From NCBI RefSeq assembly GCF_014645535.1, contig NZ_BMLX01000001.1, positions 1,047,169 through 1,111,168 on the forward strand: 64,000 nt of DNA, given 5' to 3'. Position 1 is the stretch's first letter; each line of letters opens with the position of its first letter. The stretch comes from Silvimonas iriomotensis. GTDB taxonomy: Bacteria > Pseudomonadota > Gammaproteobacteria > Burkholderiales > Chitinibacteraceae. The translations under genes were made by a program, and so were the position numbers. Below are positions 19,358-23,942 of this stretch, one piece after another. The notes under the pieces were generated by a model. The model did not search any database. It worked only from the letters and a program-made list of their open reading frames with translations, and was not told the origin of the DNA.

Positions 19358-19390
19358 TGAAAAAAGCCGCCAGGAAGGCGGCTTTTTTCA
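19358..19390. terminator. bidirectional terminator after the copper chaperone
   Basis: TGAAAAAAGCCGCC pairs with GGCGGCTTTTTTCA around a five-base loop. It sits between convergent genes. Confidence 0.88.
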
Positions 19391-19409: not shown

Positions 19410-19799
19410 TTAGTCCAGTTGCTCCAGGTAAACCCCTTCCGGCAACAACGTGCCTATGGGCGCGGGGCAAAAATACGCCCAGGCTTGTACTTGCGAGCCA
19501 TCCGGCGCGTGCACCGCAATGCGTTCGCGCGCATACCATTCAGGATGGCGCTCCAGCACATCCAGATGCGCCAGCTGATCCGCATCCACGCGATACAACT
19601 CGCCCGTCACCGGATAGCGTGATTCGCCCTTGAACAGAAACGGAATCCGTTGCTCCAGATAAAGCGCATAGCTGGCCACGGTGCGGGCTGCACCCAGGCA
19701 CGGCGTTCCGCGCATCCAGTGATGGTTGCGGCAACCTTGTTTCAAGGTGCCGTATACAAAGACATAGCCATCATCGGCCGCAGTGCTGTTGTGGGTCAT
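19410..19799 (-). CDS. gamma-glutamylcyclotransferase/AIG2-like protein
   Basis: A 129-residue cyclotransferase-fold protein. The YGTLKQG substrate loop is at 16-22, and the likely catalytic glutamate is Glu83 in LDVLERHPEWY. Family members release 5-oxoproline from gamma-glutamyl amines or peptides; the exact substrate of bacterial YtfP-like members is not established. The ATG overlaps the stop of the upstream ChiN-repeat gene (ATGA), so the two are translationally coupled. Confidence 0.85.
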   Translation of the reverse strand: MTHNSTAADDGYVFVYGTLKQGCRNHHWMRGTPCLGAARTVASYALYLEQRIPFLFKGESRYPVTGELYRVDADQLAHLDVLERHPEWYARERIAVHAPDGSQVQAWAYFCPAPIGTLLPEGVYLEQLD

Positions 19800-21193
19800 C
19801 GGGTGGGGACACGCGTGTAGTTGTCGGGCAGATCAAACGGCTTGCTGTTCTGATCCGTTGCCGGGGCAGCAGTAGCCGGGGCGGCGGCCGGTGGCTCCAT
19901 GTCATCGACCGTCGACGCTGGCGGCACCTTGCTGATGGCGGGCGCTGGCGCAGCGGGCGGGATGGCGGTGGTCGCATCGGCAATCGCCAAGGGCTGGCTT
20001 TCCCGGCAATCGTCATCGTCAAAACACACTTGCACGGCCATATGCACCGGCGCTTCGGTGCGCAGGATGCGCACCTTGCCGCAGTAACTGCGCGTACTGC
20101 TGACGGTCTGGGCCGCTTCTTCCACACCTTGCGGGCATTGCACGGCGCGCTTCTGGATATCGCCAAACGCCGTTCTGGCATCCGTATCGAACAACTGCCA
20201 GCGCAACGGCGCATTGGGCGCAGCGGCAACCGGCAAGGACCAGGCCAGGATGTACGAATCTGCCGTCGTACCACTGAGCGCCAGTTGCGGCACCACGCTG
20301 GAAGGTTGCGCGCTGACGACTTCCACGGCGTAAACGTCGCTGGGGGTACAGGCCAGTTTGGTACACAGCCGCACGCTCAATTGATGCTTGCCCGGTGCAA
20401 GCCCGGTCAGCGTGGTTTCGCCCATCTGGCTGTGCGCGTCGTCTTCACCAAAAGCACTGGATTCAAACAGCACTTTTTTATCGTCCAGCACCTGCCAGTA
20501 ATGGCCGGGCGTACCCCACCACAAATGCCAGGTGAGCTTGATCGGCTCGCCAGTGGTCACGGTGGGCAGCCATTCGATTTCTGGTGCGGAAGGCTTGCCG
20601 TCGCCCTTGGCGCCACCCACCCAGGTGTTGGCGCCCAGCAAAGTGCAGACCGGTTCGTTTTTGGTACCCGTGTTGCACAGGCGGATCTGCAGTTCGTGCC
20701 GGCCTGGCGCCAGATCGGTCAGGGTGTACACGCCGCTTTGCACCGAGACCGCTTTGGCAGCGCTGTCTTTGCTGGTGAGCAACGTGCGCTGGGTAAAGCT
20801 TTGCGTGCGCACGCGCAATTCGCCGTTATCCCAGATTTCCCAATACTGGGCCGTGGTCCCGAAATTGATATCCCAGCCTATGGTCAGCTGATTGCCCGGC
20901 AGCGATGCGGGCACCTCGTCCATCGCCGGTTTGATCGGCGGCTCTACGCTGGGCGCGGGAATGGACTGACCCGGGTATTGCATGGCCGGCAAGGCCTGAA
21001 TGGATGGGTCGTTGGCCGGCGCTGCGGGCGGCGCTTCCACATCAATGCAATCGACCATGCCGCCGCTGGCCGGCTTGCAGGCCCGGTTGCCGCTGCTGGC
21101 AGCTTCCTGCGGCGTCATCAAGGTTGCTTGCGCCACGGCGCAGCAGAACCAGCACAGAACACAGAACACCAACCGCTGCAGGGTCAAATCCAT
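19796..21193 (-). CDS. exported protein with three tandem chitinase-A N-terminal-like (ChiN) domains
   Basis: A 465-residue protein with a signal peptide ending near AQA (residue 23). Three Ig/Fn3-like repeats follow at about 100-184, 200-294 and 303-404, each with a C-terminal cysteine pair (173/183, 277/282, 390/396). Pro/Ala-rich linkers flank them (50-95 and 405-450). Repeat 2 resembles the N-terminal domain of Serratia ChiA: EIEW near its start, LTWHLWWGTPG, KVLFES and VRLCTKLACTPSD. No catalytic, anchoring or transmembrane segment is visible. It may bind chitin or another polymer or be a structural module; function is unproven. It lies between recJ (36 bases away) and the cyclotransferase. 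Confidence 0.75.
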   Translation of the reverse strand: MDLTLQRLVFCVLCWFCCAVAQATLMTPQEAASSGNRACKPASGGMVDCIDVEAPPAAPANDPSIQALPAMQYPGQSIPAPSVEPPIKPAMDEVPASLPGNQLTIGWDINFGTTAQYWEIWDNGELRVRTQSFTQRTLLTSKDSAAKAVSVQSGVYTLTDLAPGRHELQIRLCNTGTKNEPVCTLLGANTWVGGAKGDGKPSAPEIEWLPTVTTGEPIKLTWHLWWGTPGHYWQVLDDKKVLFESSAFGEDDAHSQMGETTLTGLAPGKHQLSVRLCTKLACTPSDVYAVEVVSAQPSSVVPQLALSGTTADSYILAWSLPVAAAPNAPLRWQLFDTDARTAFGDIQKRAVQCPQGVEEAAQTVSSTRSYCGKVRILRTEAPVHMAVQVCFDDDDCRESQPLAIADATTAIPPAAPAPAISKVPPASTVDDMEPPAAAPATAAPATDQNSKPFDLPDNYTRVPTR

Positions 21194-21229: not shown

Positions 21230-22915
21230 TTACTCGCAATGCTCCAGTTGCAACTGCAAAATGCGTTCGCCACGAAACTCGTTGATGCTGATCGAGAACA
21301 CGGCGGTGACTTTATCCGGCAAGGCTTGCGGGCTGCCAAAGCGGATGCCATCAAGCACCATGCCAAAGCGGGTGGCCAGCTTCACCTTGAGGTGACGTTC
21401 ACCGACCACACGTTGTTCCAGCACCCGGAACTCGTCATGAAAGCGTGGCGCCGGAAAACCCTGACCCCACACCTGGTGATCCAGCCGCGCGACCACCTCC
21501 ATGTTGTAGCTTTCTTCCGGCAAGGCGCCATCGGTTTCGATAATGCGCTCCAGCGCCGTCGCCGGCATCAACTCCCGGCACACGGCCTCAAACGCTTGCT
21601 GGAAGCGCGCAAAGTCTTCGGTACGCAGGCTCAGGCCCGCCGCCATGGCGTGCCCGCCAAACTTCAGGATCAAGCCTTCATGACGCTTTGATACCAGATC
21701 CAGCGCATCACGCAGATGCAGGCCGGGAATCGAGCGGCCAGAGCCTTTGATCTCGCCCTCGCCCCCATCGGCAAACACCAGCGTAGGCCGGTGAAACTGT
21801 TCCTTGACGCGGGAGGCCACAATCCCGACCACGCCCTGGTGCCAGTCTGCGCGGTACAAACAGATGCTCCAGCTATCTGCCACATTGACGCTGGCCAGAA
21901 TGGCCTCGGCCTCGTCGCGCATGCCGGCTTCGATATCCCGGCGCGCGCGGTTCATCTGATCCAGCTCGCTCGCCAGCGGCAAGGCGGATTGCTCTGATCC
22001 CGCCAGCAAGCAGGCAATGCCCAGGCCCATGTCATCAAGCCGCCCGGCCGCATTCAGCCGTGGCCCCAGCGTAAAGCCCAGATCAAAACAACTGGCCCGA
22101 TGCGGGTTGCGGCCAGCGGCATTGAATAAAGCCAGCACACCGGCACTGGCCTTGCCGCTACGCATGCGCTTGAGTCCATGTTCAACCAGAATGCGGTTAT
22201 TGGCATCAAGACGCACCACGTCGGCCACCGTACCCAGCGCAACCAGGTCCAGCAGTTGCCCCAGATTGGGTTCCGGCTGGCTGGCAAAAACGCCGCGGCT
22301 GCGCATCTCGGCCCGGGTCGCCATCAGTACATAGAACATCACGCCGCAGCCGGCCAGGTTCTTGGACGGAAAGTCACAACCGGGCTGGTTGGGATTCACG
22401 ATCAGCGCATCAGGCAGGTGCTCGCCCGGCAGATGGTGATCGGTAATCAGGACATCAATGCCGCGCGCTTTGGCCGCAGCCACGCCCGCCACGCTGGCAA
22501 TGCCGTTGTCCACGGTCAGGATCAGGTCTGGCGATTGCTGCGCTGCCAGTTCGACAATCTCTGGCGTCAGGCCGTAGCCGTATTCAAAGCGGTTGGGCAC
22601 CACAAAGCCGATGGTCGCACCCAGCATGCCGAGGCCCTTCATGCCAACGGCACAGGCCGTGGCGCCATCGGCATCGTAATCGGCCACGATCAGGATGCGT
22701 TCCTTGCGGGCGATCGCATCGGCAAGGCGCACGGCGGCGGCAGCGGCCCCTTTCAGTTGCGCCCACGGGATCAACCGCGTCAGGTCATATTCAAGCTCAT
22801 GCTCATCACCGATACCGCGCGCGGCGTACAGGCGCGCTTCAAGCGCCGAATACCCGGCATGGCGCAAGCGGCTTTCCAGTTGTTCAGGCACGACTCTGGG
22901 CTGGATTTGGGGCAT
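21230..22915 (-). CDS. recJ: single-stranded-DNA-specific 5'-3' exonuclease RecJ
   Basis: A 561-residue DHH-superfamily nuclease for recombination and mismatch repair. The metal-site motifs VADYDADGAT (78-87) and TDHH (158-161, containing DHH) are intact. NAAGRLDDMG lies at the end of the first domain. The DHHA1 region with KFGGHAMAAGLSL precedes the C-terminal OB fold. ATG 22915 gives the family length. It follows the PGM-like gene by 25 bases in the same direction. Confidence 0.95.
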   Translation of the reverse strand: MPQIQPRVVPEQLESRLRHAGYSALEARLYAARGIGDEHELEYDLTRLIPWAQLKGAAAAAVRLADAIARKERILIVADYDADGATACAVGMKGLGMLGATIGFVVPNRFEYGYGLTPEIVELAAQQSPDLILTVDNGIASVAGVAAAKARGIDVLITDHHLPGEHLPDALIVNPNQPGCDFPSKNLAGCGVMFYVLMATRAEMRSRGVFASQPEPNLGQLLDLVALGTVADVVRLDANNRILVEHGLKRMRSGKASAGVLALFNAAGRNPHRASCFDLGFTLGPRLNAAGRLDDMGLGIACLLAGSEQSALPLASELDQMNRARRDIEAGMRDEAEAILASVNVADSWSICLYRADWHQGVVGIVASRVKEQFHRPTLVFADGGEGEIKGSGRSIPGLHLRDALDLVSKRHEGLILKFGGHAMAAGLSLRTEDFARFQQAFEAVCRELMPATALERIIETDGALPEESYNMEVVARLDHQVWGQGFPAPRFHDEFRVLEQRVVGERHLKVKLATRFGMVLDGIRFGSPQALPDKVTAVFSISINEFRGERILQLQLEHCE

Positions 22916-22940: not shown

Positions 22941-23942
22941 TCAGAACTGCCACGGCAGTCGCGGCCCGCGCCAGAATTTCCAGCGAAGGCTGCGATCAAC
23001 CTCAACCGCCAGCCCGGCTTCCGGCAAAGAGAACGCCAGACTGTCGATCCGCCCTGCTTTCAGACTCTCCAGCAGCGGCGAAAACCAGGTGGCTTCCAGC
23101 TTTTGCCAGGCATCACGCCAGCCTTGCGGATCATTGGCGACCAGTTCCGCGCCCAGCGCAGTAAACACAATCATGGCGTCTTGCGTCGGCAAGTCTTCAA
23201 CACGGCCCGGCAAGGGCTCTGCCTGCGCCCGCGCGGCGCCAGACAAGGCCTGCACCAGCGGGTCATTCGCCACAATGCGCGCGGCGGGCAACACCGGCGC
23301 GTGGCTCAGCGGCCATTGCCCGCCGCCCCAGAACCACACCGAGCTGATCGCCGGCTCACCGCGTGCTTCGCGCGCGTCGTTGACCAGATGCGTATAGAAC
23401 AACATCTGGATTTCATTAAGGGCACGATGCCAAAGCAACGCATCCGGGCCCTTGGGCAAGAATGGGTCGATATTGCGGCCATTGACCGTATCCACCGGCG
23501 TACACACCAGTTGCGGGTCTTGCGGCACGCGCAGATACCAGCGCTGCGGGGTGGCGGCGACAAAATGGTAGCCATCTTCACCGAACAACTGGTTCAGGCT
23601 GTGCACCAGCGCATCGGCATCGGCCTGGGTAATCGGAAAACTATGGCCATCCTGCAAAGACAACTGATCCCGCCCGACATGCAAATGCACCGGGTCTGCC
23701 CGCAGCCAGTATCCAGGCTCGGCATCAGGCAGATCGACGCCCATGCTGAGTGGTGCCACCGGCAGGCCCGGCACTTCAAAGCGTTCTGCCAGCCAGTCGT
23801 GCCAGGACTGGGCGCGGGCAGGCATGGGCCGACCACGGCCCAGCATTTGCCCCAGCGCGGGCAGTTTCAGGTCGTTGACAAGGTGAGATTGCAGTTCGGC
23901 ATCCGGCCAGATGCCGTGAGGAATGACAAGGTGATAGCGCAT
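22941..23942 (-). CDS. RpfE-type / phosphoglycerate-mutase-like conserved protein
   Basis: A 333-residue cytoplasmic protein of a family often called regulatory protein RpfE or phosphoglycerate mutase-like in betaproteobacteria and xanthomonads, usually next to recJ as here. Recognisable segments are the N-terminal RYHLVIPHGIWP, the central LPKGPDALLWHRALNEIQMLFYTHLVNDARE and SSVWFWGGGQWP. I see no complete metal-binding set of the alkaline-phosphatase/iPGM superfamily, so enzymatic activity is doubtful. No signal peptide. Confidence 0.7.
   Translation of the reverse strand: MRYHLVIPHGIWPDAELQSHLVNDLKLPALGQMLGRGRPMPARAQSWHDWLAERFEVPGLPVAPLSMGVDLPDAEPGYWLRADPVHLHVGRDQLSLQDGHSFPITQADADALVHSLNQLFGEDGYHFVAATPQRWYLRVPQDPQLVCTPVDTVNGRNIDPFLPKGPDALLWHRALNEIQMLFYTHLVNDAREARGEPAISSVWFWGGGQWPLSHAPVLPAARIVANDPLVQALSGAARAQAEPLPGRVEDLPTQDAMIVFTALGAELVANDPQGWRDAWQKLEATWFSPLLESLKAGRIDSLAFSLPEAGLAVEVDRSLRWKFWRGPRLPWQF

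Follow-up and report, generated by a model that had tools for sequence, protein, structure and literature searches.

A conserved exported-type protein with three ChiN-like repeats and no catalytic domain in Silvimonas iriomotensis, a candidate accessory protein of chitin degradation

Introduction

ChiN is known as the fused guide domain of single chitinases and is usually joined to GH18. ChiN/Fn3 folds serve as plain spacers too. In Serratia ChiA, chitin is reported to be guided by residues that include Trp33 and Trp69. The equivalent of Trp69 in Vibrio carchariae chitinase A, Trp70, has been put forward as the chief contact in the initial binding step (PMC2265269). Within the family Chitinibacteraceae, 177 secreted non-CAZymes, including chitin-induced hypothetical proteins, were detected in the secretome of Andreprevotia ripae on chitin, and this organism also secretes chitin-binding proteins that carry CBM5/12 only (PMC8802321).

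Here, we describe a gene of Silvimonas iriomotensis whose product contains a ChiN domain outside this usual setting. All coordinates are positions in the window, the whole 64,000-nucleotide stretch of DNA that was analysed. The second of three repeats in the protein (repeat 2) resembles the ChiN domain of Serratia marcescens ChiA (PDB 1edq, 1ctn) in its fold, its PF08329 match, its C-terminal Cys pair, and an aromatic residue equivalent to Trp69, but it is not fused to GH18 and sits in a tandem of three. Like the CBM5/12-only proteins of A. ripae, the protein is non-catalytic, of exported type, and from the same family, whereas it has no CBM5/12 match. In the part of the open literature that was searched, no description of a free-standing ChiN protein was found, and PMC7641034 and PMC13199048 contain nothing on one.

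Results

The gene occupies positions 19796..21193 on the minus strand, with the ATG at 21193 and the end of the stop codon at 19796, and encodes an exported-type protein of 465 aa with three ChiN/Fn3-like repeats. The first-pass annotation had the span right and called the product exported, but gave no strand. The N-terminus, MDLTLQRLVFCVLCWFCCAVAQA/T, was read by eye as a signal peptide (residues 1-23, AVAQA/T, 21125..21193, minus strand). By eye, the N-termini of the relatives keep a hydrophobic stretch and an A-x-A-like site, and no lipobox was seen in those of the protein or its relatives. Residues 24-94 (20912..21124, minus strand) comprise the Cys pair C39, C49 and a Pro-rich linker, and were mostly modelled at low confidence. 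The repeats are followed by an Ala/Pro/Thr-rich C-terminal tail (residues 409-465, 19799..19969, minus strand), which differs in length between relatives; its very low model confidence (pLDDT about 45) is as expected of disorder.

Each repeat carries a C-terminal Cys pair (C173/C183, C277/C282, and C390/C396), as the first-pass annotation had noticed, and these pairs are invariant in 30 relatives. The same applies to two extra pairs, C39/C49 at the N-terminus and C353/C371 within repeat 3. In line with the earlier reading of the protein as non-catalytic, the 465 aa gave no Pfam match to a catalytic family. Pfam scans gave no GH18 match for any of the 30 family members, and no match to PF02839 (CBM5/12) or PF03067 (AA10) in the protein or the family members. 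Inspection of the sequence, the Pfam matches, and the model showed no transmembrane, lipoprotein, or signalling part in the protein. Three beta-sandwiches are predicted with confidence in the model of the whole protein, and its overall pTM of 0.42 is low, so that the relative arrangement of the domains is not fixed by it. Three-domain Ig/Fn3 receptor strings dominate the matches of the whole-protein fold search, which is uninformative taken alone.

Repeat 2 (residues 199-298, 20300..20599, minus strand) is a true ChiN domain according to the family model, the PDB profile search, and the fold search. Residues 213-295 match PF08329 (ChitinaseA_N) with 39.6 bits against a cut-off of 21.2 (E 4.9e-10), and PF08329 is matched by 30/30 aligned family members. 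The motifs LTWHLWWGTPG and VRLCTKLACTPSD, through which the first-pass annotation had recognized the ChiA N-terminal pattern, are located in this repeat. A PDB profile search with repeat 2 returned chitinase A chains first (E 3.7e-7), and all matches with E<1 were chitinases. We modelled the repeat by AlphaFold2 with 29 relatives and without templates (pLDDT 94.8, pTM 0.85); in a Foldseek search against the PDB, ranks 1-26 were all ChiA-type chitinases. The next-best fold match after the chitinases was to the Fn3-like modules of Clostridium thermocellum CbhA (PDB 3pdd, 3pdg). These modules are likewise beta-sandwiches in a secreted polysaccharide-degrading context, but they are part of a cellulase, belong to a separate sequence family, and show far lower similarity.

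The residues of the candidate chitin-contact face were located by profile alignment to 1eib, which places WNLWNG of ChiA over WHLWWG of repeat 2, so that Trp66 corresponds to Trp222 and Trp69 to Trp225. For this we used ChiA residue numbers that we take to be the chain position plus 23 (mature ChiA numbering). The codons of Trp225 and Trp226 lie at 20516..20521 (minus strand). Position 225 is aromatic in 30/30 sequences (Trp in 24/30, Tyr in 6/30), and the adjacent Trp226, which is additional with respect to Serratia ChiA, is invariant (30/30). Trp208 (codon at 20570..20572, minus strand) is also invariant in 30 sequences, and its P-x-I-x-W motif resembles the surroundings of ChiA Trp33. Since Trp208 lies outside the HMM alignment, its candidacy as the Trp33 counterpart, based on the motif only, is a lead. 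Two further residues, Trp222 and Trp233, are probably core residues, because invariant counterparts exist in all three repeats (107/118 and 318/332 in the other repeats).

Repeat 1 (residues 95-195, 20609..20911, minus strand) and repeat 3 (residues 299-408, 19970..20299, minus strand) were compared with repeat 2 by hhalign profile comparison against column-shuffled controls (100 shuffles). Repeat 1, a predicted beta-sandwich, aligned to repeat 2 with a probability of 99.5 and a score of 121 (best shuffle 20), and repeat 3, the most divergent of the three, with a probability of 92 and a score of 40.5 (best shuffle 20.6). Thus, each is homologous to repeat 2 beyond chance; no direct homology between repeats 1 and 3 was detectable by hhalign. 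Neither repeat matched PF08329 in the Pfam scan, and PDB profile searches gave no chitinase match for them. As sequence profile searches yielded nothing useful, the idea that they are ChiN domains detectable in the PDB was rejected. In most relatives, they also lack the ChiN-type aromatic positions. The first-pass annotation had counted three ChiN domains and suggested comparing all of them with PF08329 and Fn3 folds. This held for repeat 2, whereas the placement of repeats 1 and 3, which gave no ChiN match by sequence, comes from homology to repeat 2 and the predicted beta-sandwiches. Given this homology, "three ChiN-like domains" is a fair description of ancestry, and "ChiN domain" is established for repeat 2 only.

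Orthologs are present in exactly one copy each in 31/43 Chitinibacteraceae genomes and 9/11 genera, and the named relatives include Silvimonas amylolytica (84% identity), Silvimonas terrae, and Chitinolyticbacter albus. The earlier term "orphan" is therefore misleading. When the full profile was searched against 399 genomes of the order, the sole match outside the family was to the repeat 2 region, within a 680 aa frame of another protein. In a sample of the class, PF08329 was found in 5/369 genomes, including that of S. iriomotensis, and the other frames were at least 556 aa long. Comparison with S. amylolytica gave a dN of 0.092, a dS of 1.28, and a dN/dS of about 0.07, showing that strong purifying selection acts on the gene. 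An origin as a plasmid gene was rejected on the lack of a plasmid match and the stable gene order.

The first-pass annotation had placed the gene in a chitin-degrading bacterium and suggested profiling it against GH18 content. Consistent with such a setting, carrier genomes have 5-27 GH18 matches, and the two non-carrier genera have the fewest GH18 genes, with 0 in g9 (three genomes) and 3-6 in g10 (nine genomes). In a recJ tree, g9 and g10 stand apart, and its well-supported branches require two changes between presence and absence of the gene. Gene absence thus tracks low GH18 content, which is suggestive only, since there are two lineages, one gene tree with a midpoint root, and one clade whose counts slightly overlap those of the carriers. 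In the S. iriomotensis genome, the gene is the only ChiN match. Its GH18 proteins number eight, two of which score below the GH18 cut-off; ChiN was found in 0/8, and CBM5/12 is carried by 6/8.

The upstream neighbour is recJ (21230..22915, minus strand; DHH, DHHA1, and RecJ_OB domains), whose listed frame opens at 23005 and which has a likely ATG start. The next gene upstream of recJ (22941-23942, minus strand) matches 2,3-bisphosphoglycerate-independent phosphoglycerate mutase at the borderline (21.9 bits versus a cut-off of 21.5). Downstream lies a gamma-glutamylcyclotransferase-like gene (19410..19799, minus strand; GGACT, PF06094, 97.8 bits). The coupling of the gene to a cyclotransferase and its position behind recJ, both noted in the first pass, are real in the window, with a 36 bp gap to recJ and a 4 bp overlap of the stop with the cyclotransferase start, but the order is separable. 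In 27/30 loci, recJ is found upstream in the same orientation (24 within about 210 bp, and three of genus g11 at about 620-650 bp); the cyclotransferase gene comes next in 18/30, usually with an overlap. In two genomes (G011, G012), the gene is elsewhere, near tamA/tamB-like genes as read from translations, and the cyclotransferase gene comes after recJ; G025 has no copy of the gene, and there recJ and the cyclotransferase gene adjoin directly. Gene order is therefore conserved but separable, being broken in g5 and incomplete elsewhere, and a functional link through recJ or the cyclotransferase was rejected on this ground. The association with the cyclotransferase is probably one of gene order only, as indicated by the 18/30 loci and by the three genomes in which the cyclotransferase gene comes after recJ and the gene is absent from between them. 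Since the protein appears exported, it is unlikely to work directly with RecJ.

Some minor features of these loci were also observed. A small lipoprotein-like frame separates recJ from the ChiN gene in genus g11 (L069:3559-3828; L068 has a similar one). Genus g10 does not have the gene; its position after recJ is taken by a lipoprotein-like gene that encodes a Lamin Tail Domain and a TSP3 repeat (L070:3-1325, minus strand; also L071-L074, L076, and L082). A scan for promoter and terminator patterns gave no more than expected by chance. A hairpin at window positions 19360-19388 (GCCGCC-AGGAA-GGCGGC, with A6 and T6 flanks), located where the cyclotransferase gene and a PCu(A)C copper chaperone gene converge, looks by eye like a two-way terminator; it was not listed by the pattern scan.

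Discussion

The most likely reading, to which we give about an even chance (roughly 0.5), is that the product is an exported accessory protein of chitin degradation that binds chitin or chito-oligosaccharides, with both binding and export predicted. In this model, a Cys-paired protein with three ChiN/Fn3-like domains and no enzyme would be exported by the Sec pathway. The aromatic face of repeat 2 (Trp208, Trp225, and Trp226) would bind chitin chains or chito-oligosaccharides, and repeats 1 and 3 would act as spacers or weaker contacts. The protein might keep substrate or fragments close to the cell, or assist ChiN-less chitinases in engaging crystalline chitin in trans. Its role would be that of ChiN in ChiA, performed by a separate protein. 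We infer these steps, from export through binding to help for chitinases. In favour of a chitin role, we counted the PF08329 match throughout the family, the ChiA matches in the PDB profile and fold searches, the conserved aromatics, the GH18 content of carriers versus non-carriers, and the presence of a single ChiN in a genome with ChiN-less GH18 proteins. Counted against it were the origin of the GH18 association from two lineages, the scarcity of ChiN-type aromatics in repeats 1 and 3, the use of ChiN/Fn3 folds as plain spacers, the position behind recJ, and a neighbourhood in which no chitin genes are linked.

The main rival to the chitin-accessory reading is a structural or protein-contact role, in which an exported Ig/Fn3-string protein would serve protein-protein contact or envelope structure (docking, adhesion, or periplasmic assembly), chitin binding having been lost and the resemblance to ChiN reflecting ancestry. 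The receptor strings that dominate the whole-protein fold search agree with such a role, as does the closeness to ChiN of one repeat in three, and a near-universal single copy at a fixed position looks house-keeping. However, the aromatics specific to repeat 2, which correspond to the chitin-guiding face, persist in 30/30 sequences, and the genera without the gene are exactly those poorest in GH18 genes; we regard this role as somewhat unlikely. If the protein does not bind chitin, ChiN domains would have been reused for another envelope task.

The conserved candidate face could also belong to a periplasmic protein that binds a non-chitin glycan (peptidoglycan or exopolysaccharide) or senses chito-oligosaccharides instead of aiding enzymes, and an exported-type, Cys-paired protein whose gene is a constant neighbour of house-keeping genes would suit such a task. 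This appears improbable to us, given the lack of any visible membrane, lipoprotein, or signalling part and an absence pattern that follows GH18 content. Because ChiN is usually fused to GH18, a chitinase remnant or a piece of a longer gene interrupted by a frame error also had to be considered, and the first-pass annotation had itself named a missed frame, with homologues fused to catalytic domains, as a possible flaw in its reading. No sign of this was found. The 30 family members have identical architecture, a well-defined unrelated gene lies directly on either side, and the conserved architecture together with the dN/dS led us to reject a missed frame or decayed chitinase; this explanation is hardly credible.

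The chitin-accessory reading can be extended further, although we hold the extension to be a long shot. The exported tandem-ChiN protein would then be a shared non-catalytic substrate adaptor that guides chitin in trans for the ChiN-less chitinases of the Chitinibacteraceae and replaces the fused domain of the Serratia and Vibrio chitinases. If the protein binds chitin, a free-standing tandem of this kind, present once per genome in most genera of a family whose genomes have up to 27 GH18 matches each, would represent a new sort of accessory protein for crystalline chitin breakdown and an easy candidate to boost chitinase mixtures.

ChiN-like domains related to repeat 2 also occur in other family proteins (genomes G002, G003, G024, and G341). 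These proteins differ in having one PF08329 copy followed by a large region that matches nothing in Pfam, NCBIfam, or the PDB, and some carry CBM5/12-like modules. We observed secreted-looking proteins of roughly 680-930 aa (L064:2723-4756, plus strand; also in L035, L040, and L066) with a single ChiN-like domain, a weak Big_2-like stretch, and, in some, N-terminal CBM5/12-like modules. They share a conserved region of ~450 aa (…GYVIEPDFLGYMMQQSG…) with no Pfam, NCBIfam, or PDB match, and possibly represent an undescribed type of chitin-active enzyme.
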